Shown here: piece after piece, positions 36,115 to 40,501 of the stretch
How positions within the stretch are numbered: position 1 is the first letter of the stretch
Layout of the letters: every line of letters begins with the position of its first letter
NCBI GenBank assembly: GCA_023251875.1
Contig: JAHEXY010000008.1
Coordinates: 124,001-188,000 of the forward strand
Direction of reading: 5' to 3'
Source of the DNA: Bacteroidota bacterium
GTDB lineage: Bacteria > Bacteroidota > Bacteroidia > JAHEXY01
DNA: 64,000 nt
Position numbers and translations under genes: made by a program
The notes under the pieces: model-generated
What the model saw: the letters and a program-made list of their open reading frames with translations, nothing else
What the model was told of the DNA's origin: nothing
The model's database searches: none

Positions 36115-36579
36115 ATGAAGAAATTAAACTTATTATTAGCTGCAATGTTTGTGTTGTTCACAGCATCGCTTAAAGCTAGCACGGCAGATCTTTTTGCCTA
36201 CAATGAACAAGTTATTACTGCTCAAATGACAGATTTAACTGAGCTGGAAAAGGTTGTTAAACAAAACGAAGGTGTAACTCTTACAGAGTTAAAAACTAAG
36301 CATTTTGCTAACTTAAACTTAAATGGAGTTAAAGAAAGCAGCGTTCTTGGAGATTTATTTGCAATGAGAGGTGGAGATTTACCATTAGGTATTCCTGCTT
36401 TTGTATGGGGTTGTGTGTTAGGTTGGGTAGGTATCTTAATTGTATACTTTGTAACTGAAGACAAACAAGAAACATTAAAAGCGCTGTGGGGTTGCTTAGC
36501 ATGGGGTGCTGTTGATGTGATATTCTACATTGTATATGTAGTAATTATTTTAGGTTCTGCAGCTGCAACAACTTATTAA
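36115..36579 (+). CDS. Small exported/membrane protein of unknown function
   Basis: A 154-residue protein from the ATG at 36115; the open frame starts earlier (36073), but MKKLNLLLAAMFVLFTASLKA is a clean signal peptide. A charged central region is followed by two hydrophobic segments (about 103-121 FVWGCVLGWVGILIVYFV and 133-151 GAVDVIFYIVYVVIILG). The MRGGDLPLGIP motif before them resembles a bacteriocin-like GG leader, but the position is internal, so I do not call it one. Own promoter and terminator, so single-gene unit. Small and apparently well-expressed. Confidence 0.7.
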   Translation: MKKLNLLLAAMFVLFTASLKASTADLFAYNEQVITAQMTDLTELEKVVKQNEGVTLTELKTKHFANLNLNGVKESSVLGDLFAMRGGDLPLGIPAFVWGCVLGWVGILIVYFVTEDKQETLKALWGCLAWGAVDVIFYIVYVVIILGSAAATTY

Positions 36580-36601
36580 TAAAGTATAAATAAAAAATTA
36601 T

Positions 36602-36640
36602 AAAAATGCCCTTGCTTTTATAGCTTGGGCATTTTTATTT
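36602..36640 (+). terminator. Factor-independent terminator
   Basis: AAAAATGCCC (36602-36611) pairs perfectly with GGGCATTTTT (36627-36636) across 15 bases, followed by A/T-rich ATTT. It ends the small membrane protein transcript, 22 bases after its stop. Confidence 0.85.
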
Positions 36641-36668: not shown

Positions 36669-37343
36669 ATGAATTCACGTTTTTTATTTTTCTTCTTTAT
36701 ATTTCCCCTATTTACTTTCTCCCAAAATTTTTATCGCATAAAAGCGGATTTTACTATTAAACAAAAAAATGCAGACGGTTCAAGTGCTTTAACCGTTGGA
36801 AAAGTATATTATGATAAAAATTATAAAGAAATTGTTTATGATATTTCTTTTCCTGAAAAAGAGATGTGGATTACCAAAGACACTTCTGTTTATAAATTTG
36901 TAGATAAAAAATTTGTAAGTAGACAAACCGTGCCGGCTATAGCGGAATTTTCTATATTTCATTTGTGTTTAAATGGTACCCTAACTAATTATGGTCTTGA
37001 AAGCTCTCCTTATACAATTTATAATGTAGAAAAGGAAAATGGAATGGTACTTACCACATGGATGCCTCCGGCTAAAATGGCTAAGTTTTTAGGGAAAGTA
37101 ATTGTATCTCAAAAAGACAAAAAATTATACGGTGTGGCCATGTGTAATATTAAAGGCGAAACATTAAATAAGCAATTTTATAAAAACTATGATAGTAATT
37201 CAGGCATTGAATTTCCAAAAGAAATAGTGCAAATTACGTATATAAATGGTAAGGAAAATTATCAAGTTACAACTTATGAAAACATTATTATTGATGATTA
37301 CAGCGAAGAAGAAATGTATAATTATCCTGTTACTGCTCATTAG
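36669..37343 (+). CDS. Exported LolA-like protein
   Basis: 224 residues with a signal peptide (MNSRFLFFFFIFPLFTFSQ). The mature part alternates strands: FYRIKADFTIKQKNADG, VGKVYYDKNYKEIVYDISFP, MWITKDTSVYKFVDKKF. This resembles the LolA/LolB half-barrel (shared substrate accumulating as a film of beta strands reading out a bound lipid), but I cannot confirm it by eye. It is the first gene of a five-gene plus-strand run with a YidD-like gene and three TPR genes. Its end overlaps the YidD-like gene. Confidence 0.6.
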   Translation: MNSRFLFFFFIFPLFTFSQNFYRIKADFTIKQKNADGSSALTVGKVYYDKNYKEIVYDISFPEKEMWITKDTSVYKFVDKKFVSRQTVPAIAEFSIFHLCLNGTLTNYGLESSPYTIYNVEKENGMVLTTWMPPAKMAKFLGKVIVSQKDKKLYGVAMCNIKGETLNKQFYKNYDSNSGIEFPKEIVQITYINGKENYQVTTYENIIIDDYSEEEMYNYPVTAH

Positions 37344-37713
37344 TGGTATTTATTGGGATGCAAAGTCTCAAACCCAAGAAGATATTAATACGGTTCGTAA
37401 AGTTTTGCAAACTCATAATCACAAATTAAAAGTAAAAGATAAATATCAATATGCCAATGAAAATAATACCAATGAATTAAGTTGGATTTTTTCAAAATTA
37501 TTTTTGGGATATAAGGCATTTTTTTCTTCTCAAGATATGTCGTCTTGTACATTTACACCATCCTGTTCTGAATATGGAATGTTGGCAGTAAAAAAACAAG
37601 GTGTAATTGTAGGAATAATCAATACCTTCGATCGATTAACGCGTTGTAATGGCCTTAGTCCTGAATTGTATGAAATTGATCCTAAAACTCACCTTTATAT
37701 TGATCCGCTTTAG
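37276..37713 (+). CDS. YidD-like membrane insertion factor with signal/anchor sequence
   Basis: About 145 residues from the ATG at 37276 (the next in-frame ATG at 37294 is equally possible; both overlap the preceding gene). A positively charged N-terminus and hydrophobic helix (KKKCIIILLLLISGIYW) precede the YidD/DUF37 core: SSCTFTPSCSEYGMLAVKKQG, IINTFDRLTRCNG. Canonical YidD is about 70-90 residues and cytoplasmic with an amphipathic helix; this one has a 60-residue extension and a signal/anchor, suggesting it faces the periplasm or is membrane-tethered. YidD aids YidC-dependent insertion. No yidC or rnpA is nearby. Confidence 0.75.
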   Translation: MKTLLLMITAKKKCIIILLLLISGIYWDAKSQTQEDINTVRKVLQTHNHKLKVKDKYQYANENNTNELSWIFSKLFLGYKAFFSSQDMSSCTFTPSCSEYGMLAVKKQGVIVGIINTFDRLTRCNGLSPELYEIDPKTHLYIDPL

Positions 37714-37718
37714 CCTTT

Positions 37719-38663
37719 ATGACAAAAAAAATTACCGCAGAGGCGCAAAGACGCAGAGTTTTTCTTCTTGACAAATGTTTGGCTGAGCCCTTATGTTTTG
37801 CTCAAGGAAGCTTTAATCGAAGTATCATAAAAAATAGACGCACCAGCTATTTAATTGCTAGCCTTTTTTTATTTTCAACTTCTGTTTTTTCTCAAAATAT
37901 TTTTGATTATCAACATAATATTACTTATGCCAATTATTTATTTAAATCAAGGCAATATGATTTAGCTGCTCAGGAATATGAAAGAGCTCTTTTTTTGGCT
38001 CCTCATAATGATACTATTGCAGCTCAATTAATAAAAACTTATAATTTATCGGGGCAATGCAAACAAGCAAAATTAAGAGTAAAACAATTAGCATTAAACA
38101 ATGATTCAATGCCGGATATTGTTGCAAAAGAATATGTGAGAACATTGTTTTGTAATAATTTAAATGGAGATGTTCGTAATTTTCTTTCCAGTACGAAATT
38201 GCTTAATGCATCAAGTAGGGCTGAATACAGTTTGTATTTAGAACTTTCGAGCCAAAATTTTAAAAAAGCAGATTCTATATTAAATACCAATAAAGATTCA
38301 ACTGTTTCTCTCGTACTTTTAAAGTATAAAGATGTTGTTTATAATGCCAATCATTTACAACATAGAAGTCCGGGATTGGCTTTATGCATGTCTGCTATTG
38401 TTCCCGGAACAGGAAAAATATATGCAGGCAGTTGGAAAGATGGATTAATGAGTATTGTGTTTGTTGGGGCTACAGCTTTTCAAGCATACAGAGGTTTTTC
38501 AGAAAAAGGAGTAAAGAGTATTTACGGTTGGATATACGGAGGAATTTCGACTGGGTTTTACTTGGGAAATTTATACGGCTCTTACAAAGCTGCTAAAAAA
38601 TACAATTCGAAAAAGGTGCACAAAGTACTTATTGACGCTGAAAAAATATATAATGCACAATAA
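37719..38663 (+). CDS. TPR-containing membrane protein with DUF5683-like C-terminus
   Basis: A 314-residue protein. The annotated ATG lies in a dispersed repeat: MTKKITAEAQRRRVF is its translation, and the true signal peptide follows only at about 38-59 (TSYLIASLFLFSTSVFSQ). TPR-like helices (about 60-200, YDLAAQEYERALFLAPHND) are followed by two or three membrane-spanning segments containing SAIVPGTGKIYAGSWKDG. The P-G-x-G-x-x-Y-x-G motif also occurs in the next gene, so the pair are paralogous in architecture. It overlaps the next gene by 11 bases. Confidence 0.65.
   Translation: MTKKITAEAQRRRVFLLDKCLAEPLCFAQGSFNRSIIKNRRTSYLIASLFLFSTSVFSQNIFDYQHNITYANYLFKSRQYDLAAQEYERALFLAPHNDTIAAQLIKTYNLSGQCKQAKLRVKQLALNNDSMPDIVAKEYVRTLFCNNLNGDVRNFLSSTKLLNASSRAEYSLYLELSSQNFKKADSILNTNKDSTVSLVLLKYKDVVYNANHLQHRSPGLALCMSAIVPGTGKIYAGSWKDGLMSIVFVGATAFQAYRGFSEKGVKSIYGWIYGGISTGFYLGNLYGSYKAAKKYNSKKVHKVLIDAEKIYNAQ
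37729..37748. repeat. GCAAAGACGC-family repeat at gene start
   Basis: GCAGAGGCGCAAAGACGCAG, the same motif as the inverted repeat at 9763-9858. Here it lies within the 5' coding end of the TPR protein gene and adds the AEAQRRR peptide before the signal peptide. Confidence 0.75.
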
Positions 38664-39591
38664 AAAACTCTCCCTAGCCCTTCCGAAAAATCGGAACAGG
38701 TTCTCCGAAGGAGAGGGGAGAAGAACGCTATTTAATGCCTTATGTAAAAAAGGGCATAGAGTGGTTGTAATTTTATTTATTTGGCTATTTTTTTATTCTT
38801 CATTAAATATTCTTACTGCTCAAACACTTGAAGAAACTTTTGCTTATGCAAATGAACAAATGAATAAGCAAGAATACGACAATGCTTTAGGAGCTTATCA
38901 AAGAGTGTTGTTTTTTGATAAAAAAATGGGAGATAAAATTTACTATAATTTAGCAGAATGTCATTTTAAATTAAATCATTACGAACAGGCTACTAAATAT
39001 TATGACTTAGCGTATTATGTAGCATCAAACGATAGTTTAAAATTTGATGCCTTATTTCACAAAACAAATTGCTTATTACTTCAACACAATTACCGTAATG
39101 CATTAATTGAATTAATGTCGCTTGATGATTCTTTACCGGAATATTGGCAAAATAAAAAATATTTTTATTTCGGTATCACTTATTTTGGTTTGGAAGATTT
39201 TGATAAGTCCCAAAACTATTTTGTAAAAGCCAATGCTACACAAACAAACGAAATAGAGCAATTGTTTATTCAAAATAAAAAAGTAAGTAAAATAAATCCT
39301 AAAACAGCAAGAGTATTAAGCATTATATTACCCGGTTTAGGGCAATTGTATTGTGGTGATATACGAAATGGCTTAAATTCTTTTTTGCTTACATCCGGTT
39401 TTTTAGGACTAGCCATCTATACCATGTATAGCTATACGGTGGTAGAAGCATTTTTATCCGTTTTACCTTGGTACCAACGCTACTATTTGGGTGGTTTTCA
39501 AGGAGCCATGAGAATTGCTCAAGAAAAAAAAGATCAAAAACGAGCAGAAATTTTTCAGCAATTAATGGATGTATTTGCAAAAAATAAATAA
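38653..39591 (+). CDS. TPR-containing membrane protein, paralogue of the preceding gene
   Basis: 312 residues from the ATG at 38653, 11 bases inside the preceding gene. The N-terminus (about 3-35) is the translation of a palindromic repeat (LSLALPKNRNRFSEGEGRR). The hydrophobic signal starts near 39 (VVVILFIWLFFYSSLNILTA). TPR-like helices follow (QEYDNALGAYQRVLFFDKK), then membrane segments with IILPGLGQLYCGDIRNG. The protein likely sits in the inner membrane with TPR domain exported. It overlaps the next gene by 23 bases, so they are co-translated. Confidence 0.65.
   Translation: MHNKKLSLALPKNRNRFSEGEGRRTLFNALCKKGHRVVVILFIWLFFYSSLNILTAQTLEETFAYANEQMNKQEYDNALGAYQRVLFFDKKMGDKIYYNLAECHFKLNHYEQATKYYDLAYYVASNDSLKFDALFHKTNCLLLQHNYRNALIELMSLDDSLPEYWQNKKYFYFGITYFGLEDFDKSQNYFVKANATQTNEIEQLFIQNKKVSKINPKTARVLSIILPGLGQLYCGDIRNGLNSFLLTSGFLGLAIYTMYSYTVVEAFLSVLPWYQRYYLGGFQGAMRIAQEKKDQKRAEIFQQLMDVFAKNK
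38667..38724. repeat. C/G-rich palindromic repeat at gene start (copy H)
   Basis: CTCTCCCTAGCCC, an inner hairpin TTCCGA-AAAA-TCGGAA, then TTCTCCGAAGGAGAGGGGAG. It is like copy J with the extra hairpin. It is translated in frame ahead of the signal peptide of the second TPR protein. Confidence 0.8.
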
Positions 39592-40501
39592 AGCCATTTG
39601 CATTGCTTGCGTTGCAGTTTTTTCTCTTCTGCAAAGCTCTGGAGTATTGGCAAATTCAGCTAATGATATTTTTTATTCAGGATTTAATTATTTGTATCAC
39701 TTTCAATTTGCAAAAGCAGACTCCGTTGCCAAACAATTAAAAAAACAATTTCCAACAGATCCGTTGAGTTATATTTTCTCGGCCAATTGCAATTGGTGGA
39801 AAATAATTTCAGGCGAATCGGATGAAATGTACAAAAAGAATTTTTATGACGAATTAAACTATTCATTGCAATACTTAAAAATCAAAGACGACAACCATCT
39901 TACATACGATGATATTTTTAATTACATAAATGTATATTCGTATTATGCGCGTATTGATTTAATGGAAGGCAATTATTTTAAAGCCCTAAAACAAATCGAC
40001 AATTTTATCGACTATCAAAAAAAATCATTTGGAAAAGAGGCTCTTTACCCTCCCTTTAATCTTACTTCCGGTTTGTATAACTATACCATTCCTTACTCCA
40101 TTAAACATTATCCCTTTCTTGTTCCTTCTTTGCTTTTTGTACCCGGTGGTGATCAGGATTTAGGATTAAAGCAACTAACTTTAGCAGCCCTATCAACCGA
40201 TATATTGGTAAAAACAGAAGCACATTATTTTTTAATGAAAATATATACGGATATGGCTGAAAATTATTCTTTGGCAAGTGCTCATGCAGAGTATTTGATA
40301 AATGCATATTCTGATAATCTCCTCTATAGATATTATTATTTTGAACTCTTGGTGAAACAAAAAAAATATCCTCAAGCAGAACAACAGATGAACATGATAA
40401 AACAATACTCTAATAACAAAGAGCTTTCTGCAAATCAAAAAAATTACTTTACAAATCTTGTAGTAAGCGAATGGGAAAAAGTAGCAGAAACGCAGAAATA
40501 A
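39569..40501 (+). CDS. Exported TPR-like protein
   Basis: A 310-residue protein with a signal peptide (about 1-28, AICIACVAVFSLLQSSGVLA). It is mostly helical with TPR-like units (FQFAKADSVAKQLKKQFPTDPLSY, then RIDLMEGNYFKALKQIDNF). No transmembrane segment follows. It is the last gene of the LolA-like/YidD-like/TPR run and starts inside the preceding gene, so it is probably part of the same complex or pathway. Confidence 0.65.
   Translation: MYLQKINKAICIACVAVFSLLQSSGVLANSANDIFYSGFNYLYHFQFAKADSVAKQLKKQFPTDPLSYIFSANCNWWKIISGESDEMYKKNFYDELNYSLQYLKIKDDNHLTYDDIFNYINVYSYYARIDLMEGNYFKALKQIDNFIDYQKKSFGKEALYPPFNLTSGLYNYTIPYSIKHYPFLVPSLLFVPGGDQDLGLKQLTLAALSTDILVKTEAHYFLMKIYTDMAENYSLASAHAEYLINAYSDNLLYRYYYFELLVKQKKYPQAEQQMNMIKQYSNNKELSANQKNYFTNLVVSEWEKVAETQK

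Follow-up and report, generated by a model that had tools for sequence, protein, structure and literature searches.

In this work, we analyzed a 64,000-nucleotide stretch of a Bacteroidota bacterium genome (assembly GCA_023251875.1, contig JAHEXY010000008.1, positions 124,001 to 188,000; hereafter the window) and found a cassette of envelope genes encoding a LolA-like protein, an exported paralog of YidD, and three predicted tetratricopeptide repeat (TPR) proteins (TPR1, TPR2, and TPR3), preceded by a gene for a small hairpin protein that we call up. It is near certain that this cassette is a real conserved module. The gene set probably points to an undescribed route of envelope building in many Bacteroidota, with the up product probably being its cargo. 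A first-pass annotation of this DNA had described the five genes from lolA-like to TPR3 as an uncharacterized envelope assembly or secretion module. Our results agree with the assignment to envelope assembly and do not bear out secretion. In addition, the functional unit begins upstream of those five genes, at up, which is a sixth gene overlooked in that annotation and the most informative member.

Co-occurrence was assessed by a profile search for each gene in 149 class-level genomes and, for up, in 395 genomes of the class; all relatives compared are at class level, and the P values are corrected for kinship only by genus collapse. The long YidD was found in 36 of the 149 genomes. The cassette LolA was found in 22 genomes, all of which also have the long YidD (22/22; P 3e-17), and the two genes are adjacent wherever the locus was fetched. 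TPR2 was found in 35 genomes, 34 of which are long-YidD genomes (P 5e-30). Within the class, many families share the gene order of LolA-like, exported YidD, TPR1, and TPR2, mostly with overlapping genes. Of ~105 loci with a long YidD, drawn from many genera, most keep the block and its order. Marivirga, Emticicia, Lacihabitans, Jiulongibacter, Rhabdobacter, Cyclobacterium, Maribellus, and many metagenome-assembled genomes share this order, with varying flanking genes. Overlaps were counted at 76 of 84 LolA-YidD junctions and 74 of 81 TPR1-TPR2 junctions, with the predicted starts being mechanical and the two pooled locus sets sharing a few loci. In the window, the five genes from lolA-like to TPR3 are all on the plus strand and either overlap or are separated by gaps of at most 5 nt, such that the start of the exported yidD overlaps the 3′ end of lolA-like by ~67 nt. 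The first-pass annotation had reported this arrangement, with coordinates that were all confirmed here, and had proposed a synteny search; the genes turned out to be co-conserved to an extent far above that expected by chance. Based on hydropathy, the LolA-like protein, the exported YidD, TPR1, and TPR2 all have N-terminal signal sequences.

The cassette YidD scores well above the cut-offs of both Pfam YidD (PF01809; 60.8-62.2 bits, cut-off 27) and TIGR00278 (57.9 bits, cut-off 40), and the latter is matched by all 33 aligned exported relatives. Its N-terminus is strongly hydrophobic and ends in ..AKSQ. A Gln at the end of the signal peptide and three Cys (residues 91, 97, and 124 in the 145-aa form) are common to 33/33 of the aligned exported YidDs. 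This genome has two YidDs. The cassette copy is not beside rnpA or yidC, and the standard copy of 82 aa is located elsewhere in an rnpA-yidD-S41 (PDZ) peptidase block, with the S41 gene in place of yidC (L071:6354-8904, contig C17). When 119 YidD domains were placed in a tree, those of the canonical type, which come from many phyla, could be constrained to one clade (p-AU 0.83), and the constrained tree was better than the free one. Because this tree has only 70 columns and the canonical rows need two label changes in the free tree, the separation of canonical from exported YidDs is supported rather than proven by these sequences. The cassette protein is not a MISPREDICTED YidD: the signal peptide, the second canonical copy, and the tree rule out a mis-started standard YidD. 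The YidD-like protein with an added signal or anchor noted in the first-pass annotation is thus a separate exported paralog, rather than the mispredicted standard YidD that the annotation had raised against itself. A match to LolA3 on the YidD N-terminus (E 0.015) was dismissed as signal-peptide noise, and a search of the PDB found no solved structure of any YidD relative.

The LolA-like protein of the window by itself has no Pfam match, including none to PF03548, and none to TIGR00547. Among 21 aligned relatives, 10 weakly touch PF17131 (LolA_like) and one touches TIGR00547 (E 0.005). No PDB relative was found at the sequence level. The AlphaFold2 model (pLDDT 91) was compared with the PDB using Foldseek; the best match is 3buu (E 3.4e-11, prob 1.00), followed by P. 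aeruginosa LolA (2w7q) and P. gingivalis LolA3 (9tp6; both prob 1.00). According to this model, the protein has the LolA/LolB half-barrel lipid-carrier fold, and the signal peptide and predicted fold agree with its initial description as an exported LolA-like protein. Membership in LolA3 (NF053579) is not supported, as the profile match is absent, and a beta-lactamase match on the N-terminus is signal-peptide noise. The LolA-like protein of G036 (L061:6880-7737) has an internal insert of ~65 aa (..IGITKDEVIEELGKPDKV..) with a BamE/SmpA-type look, as judged by eye only.

In the LolA tree, clades A and B are separated with a support of 100. Among the 56 clade A rows, 48 are directly beside up. 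Among the 26 clade B rows, 24 are not beside up, and the remaining two (L081 and L191) adjoin up genes. Cassettes of both types are found side by side in some genomes (L034, L189, and L191). At L034, L189, L191, and L184, the clade A cassette adjoins a clade B (or LolA-less) cassette in tandem or divergent orientation, which suggests an old duplication with divided tasks.

The association between up and the cassette LolA is tight. Among the 395 genomes, up is present in 35 and the cassette LolA in 56, and 34 of the 35 genomes with up carry this LolA (P 5e-33); at the genus level, the co-occurrence is 22/23 (P 2.5e-18). The only genome with up and without the cassette LolA (G254) shares just the N-terminal half of up. 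In six genomes (G017, G036, G098, G218, G333, and G372) up is located away from the cassette, and each of these still has a clade A LolA. Some genomes have two to four up copies, in tandem or dispersed, for one machine. In L188, a variant of up lies between LolA and YidD, and the Emticicia up (L074) has a lipobox-like signal. The soluble part of ~60 aa follows the pattern LF..(D/N)E..I...F..L..LE..V..NEGVTL..L, and no fitting family was found for up in Pfam or NCBIfam. Homology of up to the C-termini of the TPR proteins was considered and is not supported, as hhalign gave no meaningful match.

An intrinsic-terminator hairpin separates up from lolA-like. The hairpin in the window has a folding energy of -20.8 kcal/mol (z -4.5; none of 200 shuffles as stable) and is followed by T-rich sequence, and hairpins are found at the equivalent position in other loci. 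Of 45 up-LolA junctions, 21 have a strict terminator pattern in the 90 nt that follow up, compared with 0.1 expected from shuffles, and none of the later junctions has one (0/83 after LolA, 0/101 after YidD, and 0/87 after TPR1; 0/271 in total). The count of 21 is a lower bound, as the strict pattern misses several imperfect hairpins and that of the window itself, which has an internal loop. With a terminator after up, the downstream genes would depend on read-through or a second promoter. Structural subunits with dedicated assembly genes usually have this layout, in which an abundant first product is followed by a weakly read machine. A GCCCAA..TTGGGC core recurs in post-up hairpins across distant genomes with varying stems, and the hairpin could be more than a plain terminator.

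TPR1 and TPR2 are paralogous (hhalign E 1e-29), and both carry the P-G-x-G-x-x-Y-x-G motif (PGTGKIYAG and PGLGQLYCG), in line with the first-pass description of two paralogous TPR membrane proteins. TPR2 matches TPR_2 with 32.7 bits (cut-off 27), and its model (pLDDT 90) has TPR solenoids as the best PDB matches. TPR1, which is homologous to TPR2, falls just under the TPR cut-off (23.9 vs. 25 bits). For DUF5683 (PF18935; cut-off 26.7), the two proteins of the window score 14.0 and 18.4 bits, and 18 of 27 TPR2 members match this family at E<=0.01. Both proteins in the window open with extra non-family sequence located between the previous stop and the signal peptide (37719-37890 and 38653-38830), unlike their relatives. 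The TPR1 opening is a dispersed repeat (GCAGAGGCGCAAAGACGCAGAG) with eight genome copies at <=2 mismatches, compared with zero for the reversed control, and the TPR2 opening, CTCTCCC..GGAGAGGG, looks palindromic and has only one copy at <=3 mismatches. New start codons at the TPR gene junctions seem to have been supplied by repeat insertions.

The first-pass annotation had also included TPR3 in the cassette as an exported TPR protein. Its gene position is confirmed, but the TPR assignment is weak (TPR_19, E 0.045, below the cut-off) and core membership does not hold. Among 15 strong matches, 13 TPR3 homologs are in long-YidD genomes, often elsewhere on the chromosome or divergent; TPR3 is a loose, facultative associate and not a core member. 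Homologs of TPR3 lie divergently opposite the clade B lolA in L036, L039, L167, L172, L187, and L189, and TPR3 may be a partner of clade B more than of clade A.

A third set of cassettes has no LolA at all. Among genomes with a type-A YidD, G067, G124, and G127 have neither LolA nor up, and small lipoproteins precede YidD in G067 and G127. Clade B and LolA-less cassettes exist without up, and the YidD-TPR pair is therefore the core, with LolA as a frequent addition and up being specific to clade A LolA. Small lipoproteins are encoded directly upstream of the exported yidD in the LolA-less type-A loci L062:6824-8283 and L060:5584-6039, with at least one in L062 belonging to the TRL family (PF13146). 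In L161:4916-5852, two small proteins with a signal peptide and a hairpin, one weakly TM2-like, are encoded next to a shortened yidD-like gene and TPR1-TPR2 in an up-like layout.

Based on these patterns, our leading interpretation, which we put somewhat short of an even chance, is that the cassette genes specify a machine dedicated to envelope assembly that has a client of its own, the up hairpin protein. The C-terminal segments of TPR1 and TPR2 would anchor both proteins in the inner membrane and leave their TPR scaffolds exposed to the periplasm, where the two proteins may form a complex with YidD on the periplasmic face of this membrane. The amphipathic YidD domain would work on that face as a mirror of cytoplasmic YidD and assist the extraction or insertion of hydrophobic helices. 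The LolA-like protein would then take a hydrophobic ligand from the TPR/YidD complex, either the up hairpin or a lipid on up, shield it, and ferry it across the periplasm, with the outer membrane as the probable destination, or else insert it from the periplasmic side. With the terminator limiting read-through, up may be made in excess of the machine. This mechanism as a whole is moderately likely. We propose more tentatively a hitherto unknown pathway of envelope biogenesis, in which a periplasmic YidD-TPR complex of the inner membrane hands small exported alpha-helical hairpin proteins of the up family to a LolA-type carrier. It would amount to a Lol-like pathway that handles helical membrane proteins rather than lipoproteins, with YidD acting from outside the inner membrane.

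Several observations weigh against this interpretation. The up product may not be cargo and could instead act as a subunit or dock. Its codon usage in this genome gives no clear sign of high expression (z 0.74), the pooled codon-usage signal is weak (p 0.049), and the terminator pattern is found at only about half of the up-LolA junctions. The presence of clade B and LolA-less cassettes without up means that the YidD-TPR core must have other tasks. There is no LolB-like receptor in the cassette, and the topologies are derived from hydropathy only.

The strongest competitor, which we consider unlikely, is an alternative Lol-type route in which the LolA-like protein carries lipoproteins or a lipid/amphiphile, TPR-YidD detaches this cargo from the inner membrane, and up, instead of being the cargo, serves as a membrane dock or release factor. 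The LolA fold, the lipobox-like signal of the Emticicia up, and the small lipoproteins directly upstream of YidD in the LolA-less G067 (TRL-family proteins included) and G127 are consistent with it. So is the viability of F. johnsoniae without any known LolA/LolB, from which a further route is expected; the 2025 work on its Lol mutants reaches the conclusion that there must be alternative, unknown routes of trafficking (PMC11885536). Specialized Lol paralogs already have an example in LolA2/LolB2 of the flexirubin locus. However, the cassettes contain no LolCDE, LolF, or LolB gene, the multiple up copies per machine and the position of the terminator are more in keeping with cargo than with a dock, and general lipoprotein cargo would leave the tight link between up and LolA without a reason.

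A role as a periplasmic-side helper of inner-membrane insertion seems distinctly improbable. Here, the exported YidD and TPR scaffolds would assist YidC/Sec clients, with the LolA-like protein as a holdase for hydrophobic segments leaving the translocon. The YidD domain is intact, and up, TPR1, and TPR2 all have transmembrane segments after the signal peptide. Moreover, PMC8082313, citing Yu et al. (2011), lists E. coli YidD as making in vitro contacts with the translocon or with proteins undergoing insertion, which fits a helper role in helix insertion or extraction. A general insertion role is nevertheless hard to reconcile with the patchy distribution (36/149 genomes) and with the dispensability of the cassette for the class, and it does not explain the link to one small client family. 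We attach very little probability to a sub-module of type IX secretion system (T9SS) or gliding machinery. This possibility is raised by weak scores of TPR2 to the PorE (E 0.008) and PorW (E 0.07) models and by the service of Bacteroidota LolA1/LolB1 to T9SS lipoproteins (PMC11885536), but the NCBIfam scores are far under the cut-offs (14.5 vs. 600 and 11.7 vs. 250 bits), such weak matches are common among TPR proteins, and no T9SS gene recurs beside the cassettes, whose flanking genes were not systematically annotated. Finally, the data refute the view that unrelated envelope genes lie together here by chance and include a standard YidD with a wrong start. We found no point in its support, and it conflicts with the co-conservation and gene overlaps, the separate canonical YidD beside rnpA, the conserved terminal Gln of the signal peptide in all aligned exported YidDs, and the compatibility of the tree with a single canonical clade that excludes the exported YidDs.

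Table 1. Features of the cassette and its upstream region, in window positions.
Feature	Position	Strand	Description
up	36115-36579	+	154 aa; signal peptide followed by a soluble part of ~60 aa and a hairpin of two strong transmembrane helices; putative client or partner
Intrinsic-terminator hairpin	36600-36638	+	AAAAATGCCC..GGGCATTTTT; between up and lolA-like
lolA-like	36669-37343	+	Predicted LolA-superfamily periplasmic carrier, 224 aa; cleavable signal peptide without lipobox; clade A
Exported yidD paralog	37276-37713	+	145 aa; start at 37276 or 37294; ORF open from 37246
TPR1	37719-38663	+	Signal peptide, periplasmic TPR region, C-terminal hydrophobic segment with PGTGKIYAG
TPR2	38653-39591 (or from 38632)	+	TPR1 paralog; TPR solenoid and C-terminal PGLGQLYCG hydrophobic helix, DUF5683-like
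TPR3	39569-40501	+	Exported helical protein; weak TPR match; facultative associate

Bacteroidota are unusual in how many envelope proteins they export, and this cassette is a concrete and widely conserved candidate route with a cargo that can be tested. For the YidD domain, which is poorly understood, the cassette also provides a context in which its biochemical role could be worked out, namely, predicted export, fixed partners, and a probable client. Cultured hosts in Marivirga, Emticicia, Lacihabitans, Cyclobacterium, and Maribellus make the module approachable. In the literature searched, we found no description of an exported YidD or of a YidD linked to LolA or TPR proteins.

Compared with known systems, the cassette YidD has the full domain of TIGR00278/PF01809, above the curated cut-offs and with the C-x5-C-S and R-C cysteines. 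Standard YidD is ~75-90 aa long, has no signal peptide, and acts at the cytoplasmic face of the inner membrane, whereas the cassette copy bears a predicted signal peptide and an N-terminal spacer of ~50 aa. The C-terminus also differs, being ..GGxGYDPVP in canonical and ..SPxxYxxDxxTxLxIDP in exported copies. The cassette copy is additional to the canonical one; being exported and having neighbors other than rnpA/yidC, it is not an orthologous YidD. The C-termini of TPR1 and TPR2 share with DUF5683 (PF18935) and TM2 (PF05154) the PGxGxxYxG entry to a hydrophobic segment, but are fused to exported TPR regions and, in the window, score below the DUF5683 cut-off. With the Lol system and the LolA family (PF03548 and PF17131; LolA1, LolA2, and LolA3 in Bacteroidota), the cassette shares a soluble exported carrier with a predicted LolA-superfamily fold. 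However, its LolA-like protein matches neither PF03548 nor NF053579 and is tied to YidD and TPR genes; no LolCDE, LolF, or LolB was recognized in the cassettes, and the rest of the genome was not searched for these partners. P. gingivalis LolA3 does not bind LolB (PMC13103446), which is another sign of LolA paralogs without an assigned role. The nearest precedent for the cassette LolA is LolA2/LolB2, a LolA paralog pair specialized to the flexirubin locus with one proposed cargo (PMC11885536), although the cassette has no pigment genes or LolB and its partners are the exported YidD, TPR proteins, and hairpin protein. The cassette thus resembles both a Lol-type carrier route and a dedicated subunit-assembly operon, and is not a Lol system as defined.

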